Source: Planctomycetota bacterium (GTDB lineage Bacteria > Planctomycetota > Phycisphaerae > Phycisphaerales > SM1A02). Taken from it: a stretch of DNA of 64,000 bases. The notes below the pieces were generated by a model. It was given only the letters and a program-made list of their open reading frames with translations. It searched no databases and was not told the DNA's origin. Below are positions 21,813-62,307 of the stretch, piece by piece (the first letter of the stretch is position 1; every line of letters starts with the position of its first letter). The stretch lies in assembly GCA_022560875.1 (NCBI GenBank), contig JADFSH010000003.1:1-64000 (forward strand), in the 5' to 3' direction. A program made the translations under genes and the position numbers.

Positions 21813-22058
21813 TCAGCCGCCACTGACGGGGGGGATAAGAGCAATGGTGCAATCGGCGGTGAGAGTCGTCTGCATACCGGCGTACGATTCATCCACCGCC
21901 ACGGCGATGCTGTCGCGTATGTTTTCGATCGCTTCATGCTGGTTCGCCAGCACCTCCAGAGCATCCCCGACGTTTGACTCATCGGGCAACTCTATCGTCA
22001 ATTGCCGCGTGTTGAGGGCTTCTGCGAGTTGGGCGAAGAGGAGGACGGTGCAATGCAT
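21813..22058 (-). CDS. moaD: Molybdopterin synthase sulfur-carrier subunit MoaD
   Basis: 81-residue ubiquitin-fold protein ending in the required Gly-Gly (PPVSGG). The C-terminal glycine is thiocarboxylated and donates sulfur for molybdopterin. It follows moeA by 53 bases on the same strand. It also has its own TACACT box 8 bases before the ATG. The partner MoaE is not in the window. Confidence 0.9.
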   Translation of the reverse strand: MHCTVLLFAQLAEALNTRQLTIELPDESNVGDALEVLANQHEAIENIRDSIAVAVDESYAGMQTTLTADCTIALIPPVSGG

Positions 22059-22066
22059 GGGAAGTC

Positions 22067-22072
22067 AGTGTA
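22067..22072 (-). promoter_or_regulatory. -10 box TACACT in front of moaD
   Basis: TACACT ends 8 bases before the moaD ATG, inside the moeA-moaD gap. It suggests a separate, probably leaderless, moaD transcript in addition to operon read-through. Confidence 0.45.
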
Positions 22073-22111
22073 GCCCCGGAGAATCGAGAACTCATTGGAA
22101 GAAGCCGATCA

Positions 22112-23308
22112 TTATGGCCAGGCAAGAAACCGAAGTTTCGTCCCCGTCATGACGGGTTCATCCTGCACCGGGAGTTCGACGAAGCCATCGGTGTGGGTGG
22201 TATGGGCCAGATCACCGGAGCCGGCCCACTTTGGTACGACGATTGTGTTCATGTCAATCAGCCGCGCCGGGCGGAAAGCCCGCCGGTTGGGGTTGGCCTT
22301 GACCTCTTCGGCCAAGTCAACTTTGCGCCATGGCAAATCCGGCGACAGACCCAGCATCACCCTCACAATCGGCCAGATGAAAATACACGCACACACGAGG
22401 GCGGAGACGGGATTGCCCGGCAGCCCCACGATGATGGTCCCATCGGGAGCGCGGCCGACCATGATCGGTTTACCCGGCTGGATCGATGCCCGATGCAAGG
22501 CCGACTCGATGCCGCACGTCTCGAAAGCGACGGGGAAATGATCACGCACGCCCGCGGAAATGCCCCCGATGGTGATGATGAGGTCCGATGAATCGATGGC
22601 GGTGCGAACCGCGTCGATCGTCTCATCCAGTTCGTCATGGACATGGATTATCGCGGAGGGGTCCGCCCCGAAGCGACGCAGAAGTTCTGCGGTCTGGAGT
22701 CCGTTGGAGTTACGAATCTGGTGAGGCAGAACATCGCTGCCTACCGCAACGATCTCATCACCCGAAGAGAGGATCGTAACCCGGGGTCGGATGGCGACCT
22801 GCAGCGACGCCTTACCCGCACTCGCGGCAATACCAAGATGATGCGCCGCCAGGACCACCGGAGGTTCGATGAGCGTGTCGCCGGTTTTCGCATCCACCCC
22901 CCGCGGATGCACCGCCCGCCCCGGTTCAACCTTGTCAATCGTAAAGTGAACGGGATCACCACGATCCGACAACTCGTGTTGGATGACGGTATCCACATCA
23001 TCGGGCAGGGGGGCGCCGGTGGCGATCATCACGCATTGGCCGGGCGGCACCACGACATCACCGGGATTACCGGCAGGAATGGACGTGATGACCGGCCATT
23101 CGGTAAGCTGACCGAGTTCCGAAGCCCGCAGCGCATAGCCATCCATTTGAGCGCGATTGAAGGGGGGGAGATCACGATCGGCGGTGATCGTTTCCGCCAG
23201 CACCCGCCCGGCACATGATTCGAGTTGGATAGTTTCCGTCCCCGGGAGAGGCTCGACAACCGCCAGTGCCTGATTCAGCGCATCGCGATAATCGGGCAGG
23301 CTCGTCAC
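22112..23308 (-). CDS. moeA: Molybdopterin molybdenumtransferase MoeA
   Basis: Inserts molybdenum into adenylated molybdopterin. 398 residues, standard size, with DRDLPPFNRAQMDGYA near the N terminus, ATGAPLPDDVDTV, SSGDEI in the MoCF-binding domain and GLPGNPVSA. The GTG start overlaps the TGA of the upstream hydrolase gene (GTGA), so it is translationally coupled. It belongs to the tight minus-strand cluster 26064-21813. Confidence 0.95.
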   Translation of the reverse strand: MTSLPDYRDALNQALAVVEPLPGTETIQLESCAGRVLAETITADRDLPPFNRAQMDGYALRASELGQLTEWPVITSIPAGNPGDVVVPPGQCVMIATGAPLPDDVDTVIQHELSDRGDPVHFTIDKVEPGRAVHPRGVDAKTGDTLIEPPVVLAAHHLGIAASAGKASLQVAIRPRVTILSSGDEIVAVGSDVLPHQIRNSNGLQTAELLRRFGADPSAIIHVHDELDETIDAVRTAIDSSDLIITIGGISAGVRDHFPVAFETCGIESALHRASIQPGKPIMVGRAPDGTIIVGLPGNPVSALVCACIFIWPIVRVMLGLSPDLPWRKVDLAEEVKANPNRRAFRPARLIDMNTIVVPKWAGSGDLAHTTHTDGFVELPVQDEPVMTGTKLRFLAWP

Positions 23309-24057
23309 TGACTGATTTCCGCACCAATCACCGCGGGCGCGTTCTCGAAAAAGCGCGTGATCTTTTCGAGGCAGAGCCGCCGGGCGGTTTCACCGGTAAA
23401 GGCGTGATCGGCGCGAGCGATGATCAGATGCTCGACTTTGTGATCCATCGCCTCGAGAGCGTTCAGGTAGATGCAGGATTCGGTAAAGGGGATGACTTTG
23501 TCGGACGCGGCGAAGAGGATAAGGGTGGGGCGATCGAAATACGCCGCATCTTTAATCGGGGTGAGTGGGCCATTCCCCGTGGTCAGAGTCTGCTTCGCTC
23601 CATTGCCGTTGCTTTCGGTCGCATCAAATACCGGAGTCGGGGTGAGAAGACACAATCCCGCGAGTTGATCCGTACGCCGGGCGAGACAGGAGGTAGGCAC
23701 GGCCCCCTGTGCATAACCGATCAGGTACAGTCGATGGAGATCGATGCTCTCATGGAGAGCCAGCCAGCGAAATGCCGCGGATGCGTCATCAACCGCATCA
23801 TGTGCGGTAGGAATTTGGTTTTCATTTTTTGACCGGGCGATATACACAACGGCGGCAATTCCCGCGCCGACAAGTGACTCCACCAGGGCGTCGATGAACT
23901 GAGACTCATCTTCACTGACTTTCGGGGAGTGGCAAATCAGCGTGCCGGGTATGGCTGGTTGCTCAGCCTGAAGCTCGGGCATGGACATGGTGCCCATGAT
24001 CGTTCGATCGGCCAACTCGATCTCAAAAGTCTGGGGATGCGACATATCCGCCATCAT
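23305..24057 (-). CDS. Alpha/beta hydrolase-fold protein lacking the nucleophile serine
   Basis: 250 residues of alpha/beta-hydrolase type. The nucleophile elbow reads GYAQG, with Ala116 where Ser is expected (GxSxG). The other triad positions are still present: Asp186 (FAASDKVIPF) and His218 (RADHAF). The protein is therefore either non-catalytic or uses other chemistry. There is no signal peptide. Its ATG overlaps the stop of the BFD gene upstream (ATGA) and its TGA overlaps the moeA start. A second ATG four codons later (MSHPQTFEIEL) is also possible. Confidence 0.85.
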   Translation of the reverse strand: MMADMSHPQTFEIELADRTIMGTMSMPELQAEQPAIPGTLICHSPKVSEDESQFIDALVESLVGAGIAAVVYIARSKNENQIPTAHDAVDDASAAFRWLALHESIDLHRLYLIGYAQGAVPTSCLARRTDQLAGLCLLTPTPVFDATESNGNGAKQTLTTGNGPLTPIKDAAYFDRPTLILFAASDKVIPFTESCIYLNALEAMDHKVEHLIIARADHAFTGETARRLCLEKITRFFENAPAVIGAEISQ

Positions 24058-24281
24058 ACGTCAGACTCGTGGTGATTGGTGTCCCTGACCGGAAAGGATG
24101 TCTGACCGGTCCGAAGCAGCTCGCGAATATAGGGGACACACAGTCCGCAGCCCCGCCCGCAGTTGAATCGTTTCCGCAGATCCTCATAGCGACAGGGCCG
24201 GGCATCGGCATACTGCTTCAATACGCTGAAGGGAACATCGAAACAGACACAGTGGTCAATCGGCATGGCGGGAGGGTTCAT
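24054..24281 (-). CDS. BFD-like [2Fe-2S] ferredoxin domain protein
   Basis: 75 residues with the bacterioferritin-associated ferredoxin pattern: Cys11-x-Cys13 and Cys45-x-x-Cys48 (CGLCVPYIREL), the four ligands of a [2Fe-2S] cluster. Cys41 is extra. Related domains also occur in nitrite reductases and NifU-type proteins. No bacterioferritin gene is near. It is translationally coupled on both sides by ATGA overlaps, to the pseudopilin gene upstream and the hydrolase gene downstream. Confidence 0.85.
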   Translation of the reverse strand: MNPPAMPIDHCVCFDVPFSVLKQYADARPCRYEDLRKRFNCGRGCGLCVPYIRELLRTGQTSFPVRDTNHHESDV

Positions 24282-25039
24282 CGAGGTTTGTATGCCCGAT
24301 CATCGTTGGACAGAAAGCCGTTGTCGGGATAGTCCATGAATGCAGACAACAGTGAATCAGTGGCGTGTATGCCTTCCCAAGGGCGTGATACGTGACCGAC
24401 ATGGCCGTCAATATAGGCCACATTGGTCGATCCGCGATGTCGAAAGGCCTGACCGCCGGAATACACCAACGACCAGGGCATGCTCTCCGGGTTTTCCGGA
24501 GCGCGCATGAATTTGTTCGCCCCGTTGAGCCACCCGCCATCGCCGAAGACGACGCAGGTTGAGGTTCGCGTGCAGGTGCTGGAGGGGATACCCGGGCGGA
24601 AGAGGTTCCACCCCACTTGGGGAAAGGGAGCTTCACCCCCCAGATATGAAGTGTTGTAGTTGTAGCCGGTGAAGGGATCGCCGTTGAAGTTGGACGGGCC
24701 TTCGTATTCAGGGCACTGGTGAATCTCGCCGGGGTTGTCGGTGAATTGCCAGAGCGCGCCCGAATCAATGACCTGGCCATCGAAGGTGGTCACCCAATCC
24801 CAGGTGAGACGTATCAACCCTCCATTCCTGCGTTCATATCGAATGGCGGGAGGGAAATAGTTGTATTGCAAGGCATATTGCCGGGCTCCGATCGACATCT
24901 GACGGAGATTATTCAGGCAACTCACATTGCGTCCTGCGGACCTGACGCCCGAAAGCGTCAGGCTCGTCAGACCGAGCAGCATGGCGATAATCGCGATGAC
25001 CACGATTATCTCAATGATGGTGACGCCACGACGCGTCAT
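24278..25039 (-). CDS. Prepilin-type protein with H-x9-DG motif
   Basis: 253 residues. The N terminus is a type IV pilin-like signal (MTRRGVTIIEIIVVIAIIAMLLGL): short basic leader, prepilin peptidase site before the hydrophobic helix, and Glu near +5. The C-terminal part ends with the H-x9-DG sequence (RHRGSTNVAYIDGH) common in planctomycete pseudopilins. It would be exported and cleaved as a minor pilin or type II secretion pseudopilin. The ATG at 25039 has GGGAGGGAG upstream; a TTG 8 codons earlier is unlikely. It starts 20 bases after the dockerin gene. Confidence 0.88.
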   Translation of the reverse strand: MTRRGVTIIEIIVVIAIIAMLLGLTSLTLSGVRSAGRNVSCLNNLRQMSIGARQYALQYNYFPPAIRYERRNGGLIRLTWDWVTTFDGQVIDSGALWQFTDNPGEIHQCPEYEGPSNFNGDPFTGYNYNTSYLGGEAPFPQVGWNLFRPGIPSSTCTRTSTCVVFGDGGWLNGANKFMRAPENPESMPWSLVYSGGQAFRHRGSTNVAYIDGHVGHVSRPWEGIHATDSLLSAFMDYPDNGFLSNDDRAYKPR

Positions 25040-25059
25040 GGGTGTACCCTCCCTCCCCG

Positions 25060-26064
25060 TCAACCCCAGTTTCCCAGCAGCGTAAGCAGGTCCGTCACAT
25101 TGACGAGACCATCATTGTTGAAATCCGCAGGGGGATCGCCGGGAGCGCGGGCTCCCCAGGCTCCGAGCAATTTCAGCAGATCAGTTACGTTGACCTGACC
25201 GTCAAGATCAACATCACCAGGAATGCGGGGAGCTACATCGGCAAAACCGTCGATCTCTGGGGTGATGCCGGATCCTACGGGATTGGAAATCCTGACAAAG
25301 CTGATTTCCGACAATCCCAGCGCCCCGATATCAACCCCCGCTCCACCCCCGGAACCGTTATATATTTCCAGAACTTGCGCGTAGGTCAGGCCGCTGAAGT
25401 CTGCAAGGCTCAGCGCGGGATCGACCGGTTGCGTGAAGTTACTCTCCACGCTTCCAGGGGTGGTGGCAAAGGGATCGGTCAGATCACGATACCCCTCGGT
25501 GGGAAACAGATCATCGGCCAGCGCATCGGCCACGGTGAACCAGGTGGTTCCATCAACACTGACTTCGATGATCCCCGGTTCACTGAACAGTCCTGCGGGA
25601 TTCCCCACCCCGCTCCCGCCAAAGGCGAACAGGGCGTTGCCGAAGACCAGCAGGTCGATGCCGAAGAGGTTGTCGGGATCGTCCGTGACGGGGGTATTGA
25701 ACTGGATGGTGAGCGAGCCGCCTTCGCCGATGGAGACGATTTCATCGGTCCCGAAAGGCGAGTTGAAGACGGTCACCGCGCTGGGAAAGATCCCTTCCCC
25801 GGTAAAACGCTCCGGAATGCCCAACGTGGTCAGGGGATCAAGGAATCCCGGGGCGGCATTGGTCCCGGAGTTATACGAAATGACCTGGTCGGCATAGGGA
25901 TCGTCGGGGCCGGCCTTTTTCAGGATGCTCCGGGCCAGGAGCATCCTGTAATCGGGATGGTCCGGATTCAGGGAGGCCGGGGTGACCGGGCCGGAAAAAA
26001 CGGTCGGGGTGATCAGGGCGGCGCAGAAAACAGCCGCCAGACGATTGAGGGTGCGCAGGGTCAT
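25060..26064 (-). CDS. Secreted dockerin-type protein under a cobalamin riboswitch
   Basis: 334 residues: signal peptide (MTLRTLNRLAAVFCAALITPTVFSG), a beta-rich domain with the sequence pattern GGSLTIQF, IDLLVFGNALF and IEVSVDGTTWF, then two calcium-binding dockerin repeats (DVDLDGQVNVTDLLKLLGAWG-like and DFNNDGLVNVTDLL). The ATG at 26064 follows AAGGAG. From memory, proteins with this VF(E/G)NA(F) and VSVDG pattern recur next to B12 riboswitches in several phyla. I infer a surface protein involved in cobalamin or cobalt capture; this is not proven. Confidence 0.8.
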   Translation of the reverse strand: MTLRTLNRLAAVFCAALITPTVFSGPVTPASLNPDHPDYRMLLARSILKKAGPDDPYADQVISYNSGTNAAPGFLDPLTTLGIPERFTGEGIFPSAVTVFNSPFGTDEIVSIGEGGSLTIQFNTPVTDDPDNLFGIDLLVFGNALFAFGGSGVGNPAGLFSEPGIIEVSVDGTTWFTVADALADDLFPTEGYRDLTDPFATTPGSVESNFTQPVDPALSLADFSGLTYAQVLEIYNGSGGGAGVDIGALGLSEISFVRISNPVGSGITPEIDGFADVAPRIPGDVDLDGQVNVTDLLKLLGAWGARAPGDPPADFNNDGLVNVTDLLTLLGNWG

Positions 26065-26209
26065 AACCTGGCTCCTTGTGAGACACTCCGATTCGCGCGG
26101 AGCGGTTCCCGCCATGACGAACGACAGACCCTCGACAGGATGGCTCGTAAGCGGGATTTCCGGCGGGAACAGGCCGGAGCCGCACGGCCAGACCCATAAC
26201 GCGAGGGCA

Positions 26210-26410
26210 ACCGAGCGACTGCGGCAGGTCTTCCGGCTTCAGGCATCCTTTGCCCGCCTTCCCATCGAGTCCCTTTGCAGGATCGACAGTGGCAAACTGG
26301 GCAAACTCAGATCCGGTCCAGAGGCCGGATCCTGCCTGTCACGGCGGCGCGTCCGCGGCGGTTTTTCACCGCCTTCCCTATTGAGTCCTCCCGATCGAAA
26401 TCGAGATATC
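26210..26410 (-). promoter_or_regulatory. Cobalamin (B12) riboswitch
   Basis: On the minus strand, the conserved cobalamin-aptamer blocks appear in order: AATAGGGAA then GCGGTGAAAAACCGCCGC near 26383-26355, GCCGCCGTGACAGG near 26347-26334, a second GGGAAGGCGGGCAAAGG segment, and the strongly conserved GAAGCCGGAAGACCTGCC at 26240-26223. The normal consensus has GGGAGACC; here it is GGAAGACC. About 150 bases separate it from the dockerin gene start and would hold the expression platform. The outer limits are approximate. Confidence 0.92.
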
Positions 26411-26633
26411 GGACGCCGCAATCTGATAGCACCTTACCGGGAACCGCAAGGAGGTCAAATCCGTAGGGGGTGATGTGGCCAGGCGTGCAGAAGATCATTG
26501 ACTCACGGGACAAGCGGAGTTAGTTTCAGAGTTTCCGATGGCTTCCAGCCAGGAAACCGCCTTTCTGCCTGTTTATGTACATCGAGGATGCTTACGAAAC
26601 GATTTCTCGGGGTTGGATCAGGAGTCCAGATAA

Positions 26634-29531: not shown

Positions 29532-30335
29532 TCAAACAGCACGCCGGCTCTTCAGGTCGATGATGCCGAGGCCTGAGAGGATCGCAAGATTGATGAAAAG
29601 AAGGGGGGCGAAGACAGGCGGACCAAAGAGAATGTTCTCAAACACGTCGTGCGCGACACCGCCCAGAATGCCTCTCAAATGAAGCACAAAACCGATGCCG
29701 CCGACGATCGCCTGGGCGACAAGCACGCCGAGGCAGAGGTTGAGATACGATCGATTGGGCGAGGTGACGACGGCCAGCGCCAGAAAACCGACCGCGAACG
29801 CGCTGCTGAACACGGGGACCCATTCACTCGCGATGAAGAAACCGTTCTGGGCATGGTCGCACAGCGTCAGGATAAAGTTGCCGATGAATCCGCCGAGGCC
29901 GAACACGACAATCCATCGTCCCCATTCCATGTGATCAGGATCGACCATGCGATTGAGGAGGATCAGAAAGCCCAGGCCGGCATATGCCAACGGGGCCGCG
30001 AACGGAGCCGTATATACGAGACTTCGAATCGACATCAGCTCGAAGAACTGGCTCTCCAGGTGAAGCATCATTCCCCCGATGCCGACGATGATCGCTCCGC
30101 AGCCGATGATCATGCCGATCCACCTTCCCCATCTGCGGCGGTGTCGTCGGTCGGCGACGCTCGCAAGGGCCAGAAGGGGAGTGGCGATAACGGAGAACAC
30201 AAACGGCACCCATTCCAGGGGGTTGGCAAAGCGGTTGATGGAATGCGCAATGTAGATGTCCACCGCCAGGAAGGCTAGATTGGACAGCACGAAGAGTTCG
30301 AGAACGAGCCATCGCCAGTGGGGCCAATCAAGCAT
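29532..30335 (-). CDS. Polytopic membrane protein coupled to the octaheme cytochrome
   Basis: 267 residues with about eight hydrophobic segments (near 9-30, 41-60, 75-92, 108-128, 142-162, 172-190, 200-222, 235-256). No heme-binding CxxCH. Single histidines occur in or near membrane segments (for example LCDHAQNG and MMLHLESQ), which could touch quinol or heme. Its ATG overlaps the last 8 bases of the octaheme gene, so the two are made together. I do not recognise the family; a membrane electron-transfer partner of the cytochrome is the best inference. Confidence 0.8.
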   Translation of the reverse strand: MLDWPHWRWLVLELFVLSNLAFLAVDIYIAHSINRFANPLEWVPFVFSVIATPLLALASVADRRHRRRWGRWIGMIIGCGAIIVGIGGMMLHLESQFFELMSIRSLVYTAPFAAPLAYAGLGFLILLNRMVDPDHMEWGRWIVVFGLGGFIGNFILTLCDHAQNGFFIASEWVPVFSSAFAVGFLALAVVTSPNRSYLNLCLGVLVAQAIVGGIGFVLHLRGILGGVAHDVFENILFGPPVFAPLLFINLAILSGLGIIDLKSRRAV

Positions 30336-31587
30336 CGGGCAACTCTCGGCGTTTGCGAGCTCGAAGTTCCGCGGCCATGTCCTCGAGTTCGTTCATCTTC
30401 AGCAGCAACTCATAGTTGCCGTGCCATTGCACGAAATCCGCACCGCCCATGAACGCGCCATGTTTGGCGGTTCGTCCATAATAGTGCCAAAGGTCGAATA
30501 TGAGGAACTCAATCGGCTCGTCGAATGGCGCCGGGGTCAGGAGTTTTTCATCACGAAGCTTCTGCACCAGATCCAGCGCCGCCTGCACCTTCTCGTTAGT
30601 CGCATGGACGACGAGTTCGGCATCCTCATAGAATTTTTCGACCTGTGTCGTGGCATGGCATTTCAGGCAGGTCTCCTTCATCGCCGTCTGGCCGGTTTCG
30701 TACGTCGGGCGTTTCCTGGAAACCGGAGCGAACAGCCACCAGGACAACCGCTCGGTGACATCATGCGTCACCTTCTGCCCCTCCAACCCGCTCATATGGC
30801 ATGTGGCGCAACTGGGGACCGGCATGTCACGGGTTGTCAGCGTCTTGGATGGTGCGGATAGATTCATCAGATCCTTCTGGAACGCCCAGAGAATGCCGTG
30901 TTTCGACTCGTTGAAAATCTCGAGCTGGGAGTGGTCCGGCCCCATGTGACACTGCCCGCAGGTCTGCGGCTGTCGAGCAAGTGCGACGGATGTCGCGTGG
31001 CGGGAGTGGCACTGGGTACAAGAGCCGATGCTGCCGTCAGCATTCGGCTTGCCGATGTTGTGGCACGAGAGGCAGCCGAGATCCAGCACCCCTTCTCCTT
31101 GACGCAGCGCCAGCGCGTTCGGTGGACGGCGAACCGTTCCGGGATGGTATTTCTCCGCAAAGGCGATTTGTTCCTCGGTGAACCCCTGCTCGCCCTGAAC
31201 GGCGGCAAAAGCGGGCGCGCCGTGCCGGCTCCTGACGAACTGGTCGTACTCCGTCGTGTGACACTGGCGACAGTTCAGCGATGTCATTTGGCGAGTGAGG
31301 GTGAAGCCTGAATGGGCCCAATTTTCCTGTCCTTCCATTGGCTGATGGCAATCCAGGCATGTGACGCCCTTGACGGCGTGCCTCGACATCTCGTACTGGT
31401 GGACAATGGATGACGTCTCGCGCCGATGGCATTCGGCGCACTTGCCGATTGCCCGAATGAACTGGGCGGCGGGTTGCCCGACTACACCGCCGGTCTCGAT
31501 AATCGGGCGAGAGTTGTTGATGATGAGCGCGGAAACGATGAGCGCCGTGCCGATGAAGATGGCAATGAAGACAGATTTGAATGCCAT
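30328..31587 (-). CDS. Octaheme cytochrome c of the hydroxylamine oxidoreductase family
   Basis: 419 residues with an N-terminal signal anchor (about 5-24) and eight CxxCH motifs at 50, 77, 106, 172, 190, 210, 260 and 307. The order and spacing match HAO-family proteins: GCLSCHNIGK..DGS..SCTQCHSRH, CGQCHMGPDHSQLEIFNESKHG, VTHDVTERLSW, and late GADFVQWHG. In oxidative HAOs I recall the catalytic heme being cross-linked to a Tyr in this late region; here Phe385 stands in GADFVQWHG. That favours a reductive enzyme (nitrite or hydroxylamine to ammonia), as an inference. Acts outside the membrane; ccm genes lie 1.3 kb upstream. Confidence 0.9.
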   Translation of the reverse strand: MAFKSVFIAIFIGTALIVSALIINNSRPIIETGGVVGQPAAQFIRAIGKCAECHRRETSSIVHQYEMSRHAVKGVTCLDCHQPMEGQENWAHSGFTLTRQMTSLNCRQCHTTEYDQFVRSRHGAPAFAAVQGEQGFTEEQIAFAEKYHPGTVRRPPNALALRQGEGVLDLGCLSCHNIGKPNADGSIGSCTQCHSRHATSVALARQPQTCGQCHMGPDHSQLEIFNESKHGILWAFQKDLMNLSAPSKTLTTRDMPVPSCATCHMSGLEGQKVTHDVTERLSWWLFAPVSRKRPTYETGQTAMKETCLKCHATTQVEKFYEDAELVVHATNEKVQAALDLVQKLRDEKLLTPAPFDEPIEFLIFDLWHYYGRTAKHGAFMGGADFVQWHGNYELLLKMNELEDMAAELRARKRRELPDA

Positions 31588-61869: not shown

Positions 61870-61875
61870 TTGAGG

Positions 61876-62290
61876 TGGACAGACGATCGCGGCTGCGACT
61901 TGTCGGAGTCGAGGAAAGTCCGAACACGACAGGACACGGTGGTGGGTAACGCCCACCGGCCCCCGGTCGCGGGGTCAGGGAAAGTGCCACAGAAAATATA
62001 CGGCCGCCCCCGGATGCTCGGAAACGGGTCTCCGGACAGGCAAAGGTGAAATGGTGCGGTAAGAGCGCACCGCCCGGCTGGTGACAGTCGGGGCAAGGTA
62101 AACCCCACCGCGTGCAAACCCAAGCAGCCCCCCGGAAGTGGCGCAAGCCGCTTCCCGCCCGTGGTCCGCGGGGTTGGGGGCGGGTAGGGCGCTCGAGGCC
62201 GTCGGCGACGGCGGTCCCAGATGAATGATCGTCACCCGCAAACGCCGTCGCGAGACGACGCGCGCGGGAACAAAATTCGGCTTATGTCCA
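61876..62290 (+). ncRNA. rnpB: RNase P RNA (class A)
   Basis: Catalytic RNA that matures tRNA 5' ends. Conserved blocks in order: GAGGAAAGTCCG (61911-61922), CCACAGAAA (near 61989), GGTAAACCCC (near 62097), AGATGAATGATCG (near 62220) and the closing AAAATTCGGCTTATG. The TGGAC at the 5' end pairs with GTCCA at the 3' end (P1), which fixes the limits. Confidence 0.96.
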
Positions 62291-62307
62291 TTCGCGACCA
62301 TTTGATG

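Follow-up and report, generated by a model that had tools for sequence, protein, structure and literature searches.

Our analysis concerns a gene cluster on the reverse strand of a planctomycete DNA stretch, in which a cobalamin riboswitch is followed by the genes for a secreted protein and a pseudopilin. The stretch analysed, hereafter the window, is 64,000 nucleotides long and comprises positions 1-64,000 of contig JADFSH010000003.1 in assembly GCA_022560875.1 (Planctomycetota bacterium, Phycisphaerales, SM1A02). We find that the cluster is very probably a riboswitch-controlled locus for the capture of cobalamin at the cell surface, and that it is a new arrangement around a known type of binder, that of the BtuH family. 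With a probability of about 0.78 we read it as a vitamin B12 acquisition module made up of the riboswitch, a BtuH-type binder, a dedicated pseudopilin, a secretin machine and an ATP-binding cassette (ABC) importer. This reading draws on the riboswitch, the homology to BtuH, the conserved pair of genes behind the riboswitch, the absence of CbiC and the frequent absence of TonB components in related genomes.

The BtuH-type domain and its riboswitch

The secreted protein begins with a hydrophobic segment resembling a signal peptide, and its main domain is assigned here to the BtuH family of B12-binding proteins on the basis of a sequence profile, a pairwise search and, less clearly, the predicted fold. 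We collected 54 homologues of this domain from relatives and aligned 53 of them. When the resulting profile was run against the PDB sequences it gave a single match, to residues 391-658 of Bacteroides thetaiotaomicron BtuG1 (8blw_B, E 1.1e-10). A homologue from another family matches the same BtuG1 chain with an E-value of 3.2e-20 and BtuH2 (7biz_A) with one of 2.5e-12. For the window domain AlphaFold2 gave a model with a predicted local distance difference test score (pLDDT) of 94.8 and a predicted template modelling score (pTM) of 0.91, and a Foldseek search of the PDB with this model returned 8blw_B as its only significant match (E 2.4e-6, probability 1.00), the weaker matches being CBM32-like modules.

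Four residues are invariant in the 53 homologues, namely Asp95, Asn101, Asp203 and Arg216 in the numbering of the domain. Asn101, present in 53 of 53, is the equivalent of BtuH2 Asn399, which makes a published polar contact to B12 (PMC8941943). The residue mapping used here adds 100 to the 7biz chain position to obtain the published BtuH2 number, and it agrees with the letters at five published contacts (Gln333, Asn399, Phe401, Trp577 and Leu578). The domain is a predicted B12 binder and, judged by these homologues, the BtuH family extends well beyond the Bacteroidetes.

An earlier reading, made from the sequence only, had described the product as a dockerin protein. A dockerin-like tail is indeed present, but it is just a C-terminal tag of about 50 residues and the main domain is of the BtuH type. 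Dockerin_1 (PF00404) matches the tail weakly, at residues 282-329 (19.9 bits, under the gathering cut-off of 22.9; E 9e-4), though two EF-hand-like repeats can be seen. Stretches like this tail occur at least 34 more times in the window genome, spread over many contigs, and the tag is general in that genome. No lipobox or PKD domain was seen in the secreted protein of the window.

The elements at the head of the cluster are the following.

26206..26435, reverse strand: cobalamin riboswitch aptamer RF00174 (Rfam score 77.7 bits, E 2e-17, full length, 1-189/189)
26065..26205, reverse strand: leader from the aptamer to the start codon, with the Shine-Dalgarno sequence AAGGAG at 26077-26072
25060..26064, reverse strand: secreted protein of 334 amino acids, with the BtuH-type domain and the dockerin-like tail (ATG at 26064, stop at 25062-25060)
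25213..25938, reverse strand: BtuH-type domain proper, 242 amino acids as aligned (53-sequence alignment) and modelled
24278..25039, reverse strand: pseudopilin of 253 amino acids, of the DUF1559 / H-X9-DG kind (ATG at 25039, 20 bases past the stop of the secreted protein)

The gathering cut-off of RF00174 is 31.5 bits, and the riboswitch at 26435-26206 is the sole copy that a covariance-model scan found in the window genome assembly, which measures 3.66 Mb and is about 91% complete. The aptamer that the earlier reading had placed at 26410-26210 falls inside this match, and the start and stop coordinates and the gene overlaps that it gave for the cluster were all correct when we re-read the sequence. 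The Shine-Dalgarno sequence lies seven bases 5' of the ATG at 26064. Conserved anti-Shine-Dalgarno pairing was not found across 23 leaders (a mean of 4.3, compared with 4.5 in shuffles), and given this lack of signal we do not claim translational control by such pairing. The leader RNA folds weakly better than its shuffles (z -1.25). A terminator or a promoter after the dockerin gene had been named in advance as an observation that would speak against the proposal. Terminator-like sites (8, with 7.6 expected) and promoter-like sites (5, with 3.4 expected) occur in the region at chance level, and thus they give no argument for a break after that gene.

The pseudopilin and the conservation of the locus

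The pseudopilin matches the families N_methyl (E 5e-4) and DUF1559 (E 6e-6). Its N-terminal cleavage and methylation motif, TIGR02532, scores above the cut-off, Glu10 is invariant, and the structural model is confident, with a long N-terminal helix at residues 8-59. In the methylation motif, the N-terminal helix and the H-X9-DG motif it is like the pseudopilins of type II secretion and type IV pili and the planctomycete DUF1559 H-X9-DG proteins. It differs from these in forming a distinct orthologous group that is tied to B12 riboswitch loci, and in its predicted head, for which a search of the PDB gave no significant match. BtuK1 was disregarded as a relative of the head, its probability being only 0.01. 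Within the window genome the protein is the sole match to PF07596.

Comparison with relatives bears out the conserved order of riboswitch, dockerin protein and pseudopilin, which the earlier reading had proposed to check in other Phycisphaerae. In 35 of the 39 genomes with a clear orthologue a riboswitch lies on the same strand, 10-892 nucleotides upstream of the first aligned residue; of the remaining four orthologues, one sits where its contig ends, and in the other three (G006, G023 and G027) a riboswitch was not detected. We compared about 130 loci, 80 of them found with a 13-sequence alignment in named genome records that are nearly all labelled planctomycete or Phycisphaerae and that partly overlap with the genome set, some being the same genomes. 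Wherever the contig is long enough the pseudopilin follows the BtuH gene, with few exceptions and sometimes past an inserted propeller gene. The flanking genes differ in the families f2, f5, f6 and f9, and the set of riboswitch, BtuH gene and pseudopilin is kept. Additionally, a sample across the phylum contained the BtuH-type domain in 35 of 246 genomes, and a riboswitch was present at 13 of the 20 more distant planctomycete loci that were scanned.

The gene at the head of the cluster can vary. At some riboswitch loci the first gene encodes another secreted protein with PEP-CTERM, c6, and the same pseudopilin comes next; this family (L102, L112, L120 and others) either stands alone or directly precedes the pseudopilin. 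No Pfam or PDB relative of c6 was found, and it may be another B12 binder. The riboswitch cluster of G049 (L116) contains a DUF4465 protein (E 4e-33), the only match to that family above the cut-off in the 61 genomes surveyed below. DUF4465 is a proven B12-binding protein family (PMC13398666). At L116:1155-3554 a single open frame, with no stop between its parts, runs from a BtuH-type domain through dockerin repeats and a PEP-CTERM-like stretch into DUF4465, and this is either a fusion or the product of a missed stop or frameshift. At L250:244-2241, again behind a riboswitch, a pseudopilin-like gene comes before the BtuH-type gene and not after it.

Behind the pseudopilin the window cluster continues with four more genes.

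24054..24281, reverse strand: BFD-like [2Fe-2S] protein of 75 amino acids (ATG at 24281, ATGA overlap with the pseudopilin gene)
23305..24057, reverse strand: alpha/beta hydrolase without nucleophile (ATG at 24057, ATGA overlap with the BFD gene)
22112..23308, reverse strand: moeA, a solid family match (GTG at 23308, GTGA overlap with the hydrolase gene)
21813..22058, reverse strand: moaD (ATG at 22058 after a gap of 53 bases behind moeA; TIGR01682 E 1.5e-20, above the cut-off)

The Fer2_BFD match of the 75-residue protein is slightly under the cut-off (E 2.3e-5), and the BFD gene is a recurrent third member of the cluster, found at the same position in many relatives including distant families. 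The hydrolase is present in some genera only. It had been described as lacking its nucleophile and this holds, with GYAQG in the window where most relatives have GYSLG, GFSLG or GHSLG; the catalytic serine was also lost independently in three other lineages (L063, L067 and L068). In some genera moeA and moaD follow, other genera lack them, and a marine subgroup carries them on the opposite strand. For this reason we reject, as part of the core, the joint control of molybdenum-cofactor genes by B12 that the earlier reading had suggested. The hydrolase, moeA and moaD are lineage-specific passengers and, given how variable these neighbours are, the core of the module is the riboswitch, the B12 binder and the pseudopilin. 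Elsewhere in the window, 30328-31587 encodes a cytochrome c-like multihaem protein rich in CxxCH motifs, adjoining a predicted membrane-protein gene at 29532-30335, and a bacterial class A RNase P RNA lies at 61871-62298.

B12 need and uptake routes among relatives

A gene census with family profiles over 61 genomes, counted per genome, points to a clade that uses B12 and has to obtain it from outside. The CbiC step is common to both de novo pathways of B12 synthesis, and CbiC was found in none of the 61 genomes while control profiles matched. On this computation, which takes CbiC absence as its basis, the clade is auxotrophic for B12. A B12-binding domain is present in all 61, including in frames of about 1,200 amino acids as expected for the methionine synthase MetH. 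FecCD permeases were found in 60 of the genomes and secretins in every one.

The TonB-dependent route is much less widespread. A TonB Plug domain was detected in 28 genomes and not in the other 33, TonB_C was likewise detected in 28, and 28 have neither, among them the complete or nearly complete G037, G042 and G046. The riboswitch and the BtuH protein are carried by 25 of the 28 genomes that lack both, and by 30 of those that lack Plug. The window genome has one Plug protein, which is of the siderophore type. BtuB was not found at the locus or in the window genome, an absence that is not absolute at the completeness of this assembly. It does have a BtuF-BtuC-BtuD-like operon, which comes without a riboswitch. 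In G048 a riboswitch of the same class heads BtuB itself (L111:1039-3270; 1nqe, E 1.4e-43) and the BtuH protein was not found in that genome. This looks like a functional replacement, and it is what one would expect if BtuB and the BtuH protein did the same job.

Competing explanations and known B12 systems

In the mechanism that we favour, scarcity of B12 would cause the riboswitch to permit expression of the BtuH-type protein and the pseudopilin. The exported BtuH-type protein would bind cobalamin on the cell surface or outside it, and it may be held there by its dockerin tag or, in other lineages, by PEP-CTERM. The pseudopilin and a secretin-type machine would either display the binder or help the captured B12 through the outer membrane, and a BtuCDF-like ABC importer would carry it inward.

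There are several observations that count against this picture. The template modelling score (TM-score) that Foldseek gives against 8blw_B is low, at 0.39 over a gapped alignment. Two of the BtuH2 contacts are not conserved in the window group: Gln333 is kept in some families only, and Trp577 is not kept in the 53 homologues, the closest variant, too, having another residue there. The orthologues of G006, G023 and G027 have no riboswitch that could be detected even at a loose threshold. In the window family the synteny around the cluster extends to a heat-repeat gene, mutL and nadE, and part of the conservation is therefore general. Lastly, the assignment of B12 as the substrate of the BtuF-BtuC-BtuD-like operon is uncertain.

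The general synteny, together with the coming and going of moeA and moaD, could mean that the riboswitch controls the BtuH gene alone and that the genes after it are bystanders. We consider this improbable, as families with different flanks still keep the pseudopilin after the BtuH gene, even past an inserted propeller gene, and the pseudopilin is also kept with the other riboswitch genes, c6 and DUF4465. A very improbable explanation is that the secreted protein binds a carbohydrate or some other ligand and is linked to the riboswitch by accident. Dockerin proteins are often carbohydrate-binding, and both the CBM32-like modules among the weaker Foldseek matches and the modest resemblance of BtuH2 to alginate lyase (PMC8941943) fit with such a role. 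Against this, the one significant structural match and all the sequence matches point to the B12-binding proteins BtuG1 and BtuH2, and the riboswitch linkage holds across families.

Within the favoured reading of a B12 module, two sub-models differ in the task that they give to the pseudopilin. It could serve secretion only, as a type II pseudopilin that exports or displays the binder, with B12 crossing the outer membrane through an unrecognised channel or a leaky membrane. We put this at somewhat below even odds. Pseudopilins are known components of type II secretion, secretins are universal in the census and the binder has to be exported. However, the window genome has dozens of dockerin proteins and one PF07596 pseudopilin, which leaves unexplained why this cargo should have a pseudopilin of its own, and only B12 loci show the pairing. 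The other sub-model is possible but doubtful. Here a fibre would draw B12, or the binder loaded with it, across the outer membrane, so that pseudopilus and secretin together with the riboswitch-controlled binder would form a TonB-independent route that replaces BtuB, in its logic much like the competence pili that take up DNA. The 33 genomes without a detected Plug receptor, 28 of them also without TonB, need imported B12, and the 30 Plug-less genomes with riboswitch and BtuH protein are consistent with such a route, as is the constancy of the pseudopilin where the binder varies. Counting against it are the lack of a significant PDB match for the pseudopilin head and the absence from the cluster of any gene for a motor or for retraction, and hidden Markov models may miss divergent TonB receptors.

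The sequence-only reading had proposed a surface cobalamin-capture system unlike BtuB/BtuG-type uptake. The proposal of surface capture gains from the homology to BtuH and the conserved riboswitch linkage, but the contrast with the Btu systems was wrong in that the binder domain belongs to the family of the C-terminal domain of BtuG1; what does differ is the anchor, the pseudopilin and the absence of BtuB. With BtuH2 of B. thetaiotaomicron (PDB 7biz; PMC8941943) the window protein shares a homologous domain, the Asn399 equivalent and its place in a riboswitch-regulated B12 locus. The BtuH proteins of Bacteroides are lipoproteins with N-terminal PKD domains and BtuB/BtuG as partners, whereas the window protein has a C-terminal dockerin and a pseudopilin instead. 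The anchor is a lipid in the Bacteroides proteins and a dockerin or PEP-CTERM here. A layout near that of Bacteroides BtuH is also seen in another planctomycete family, where the PKD-BtuH protein of L246:358-2304 has a lipoprotein-like signal and its gene follows a cobalamin riboswitch of 118 bits. The best match in both sequence and fold is the C-terminal domain of BtuG1 (BtuGH) in the BtuB1-BtuG1 complex (8blw; PMC10404256, PMC12751083). BtuG sits on the TonB-dependent BtuB, which is not part of the window locus, and Plug and TonB are undetected in many relatives. Some relatives do have a propeller-like protein beside the BtuH gene: the c10 secreted proteins, with PEP-CTERM or dockerin, lie between riboswitch and BtuH gene in L100, L104, L107, L113-L115, L117 and L119, which belong to other families. 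Identifying these beta-propellers with BtuG is unsupported, as they have no sequence match to it, and their NAD-kinase matches look spurious. The likeness to BtuJ/DUF4465 (PMC12751083, PMC13398666) is limited to the G049 cluster; this is a different fold family and an above-cut-off match is absent from the window genome.

Our search of the open-access literature, which is not the whole literature, gave nothing on point about B12 surface systems of planctomycetes. To our knowledge, TonB-dependent BtuB is the only known means by which Gram-negative bacteria bring B12 through their outer membrane. The clade studied here is large; every genome examined has B12-binding domains, none shows signs of de novo synthesis, and a TonB receptor could not be detected in half of them. 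The findings tie the BtuH family to pilin biology, and the predicted B12-responsive genes show where to look for B12 import in bacteria without TonB, a question that can be tested with a handful of genes. If the pseudopilus model is true, it would mean a new outer-membrane route for B12 in the Planctomycetota, which is at present a credible though unproven possibility.

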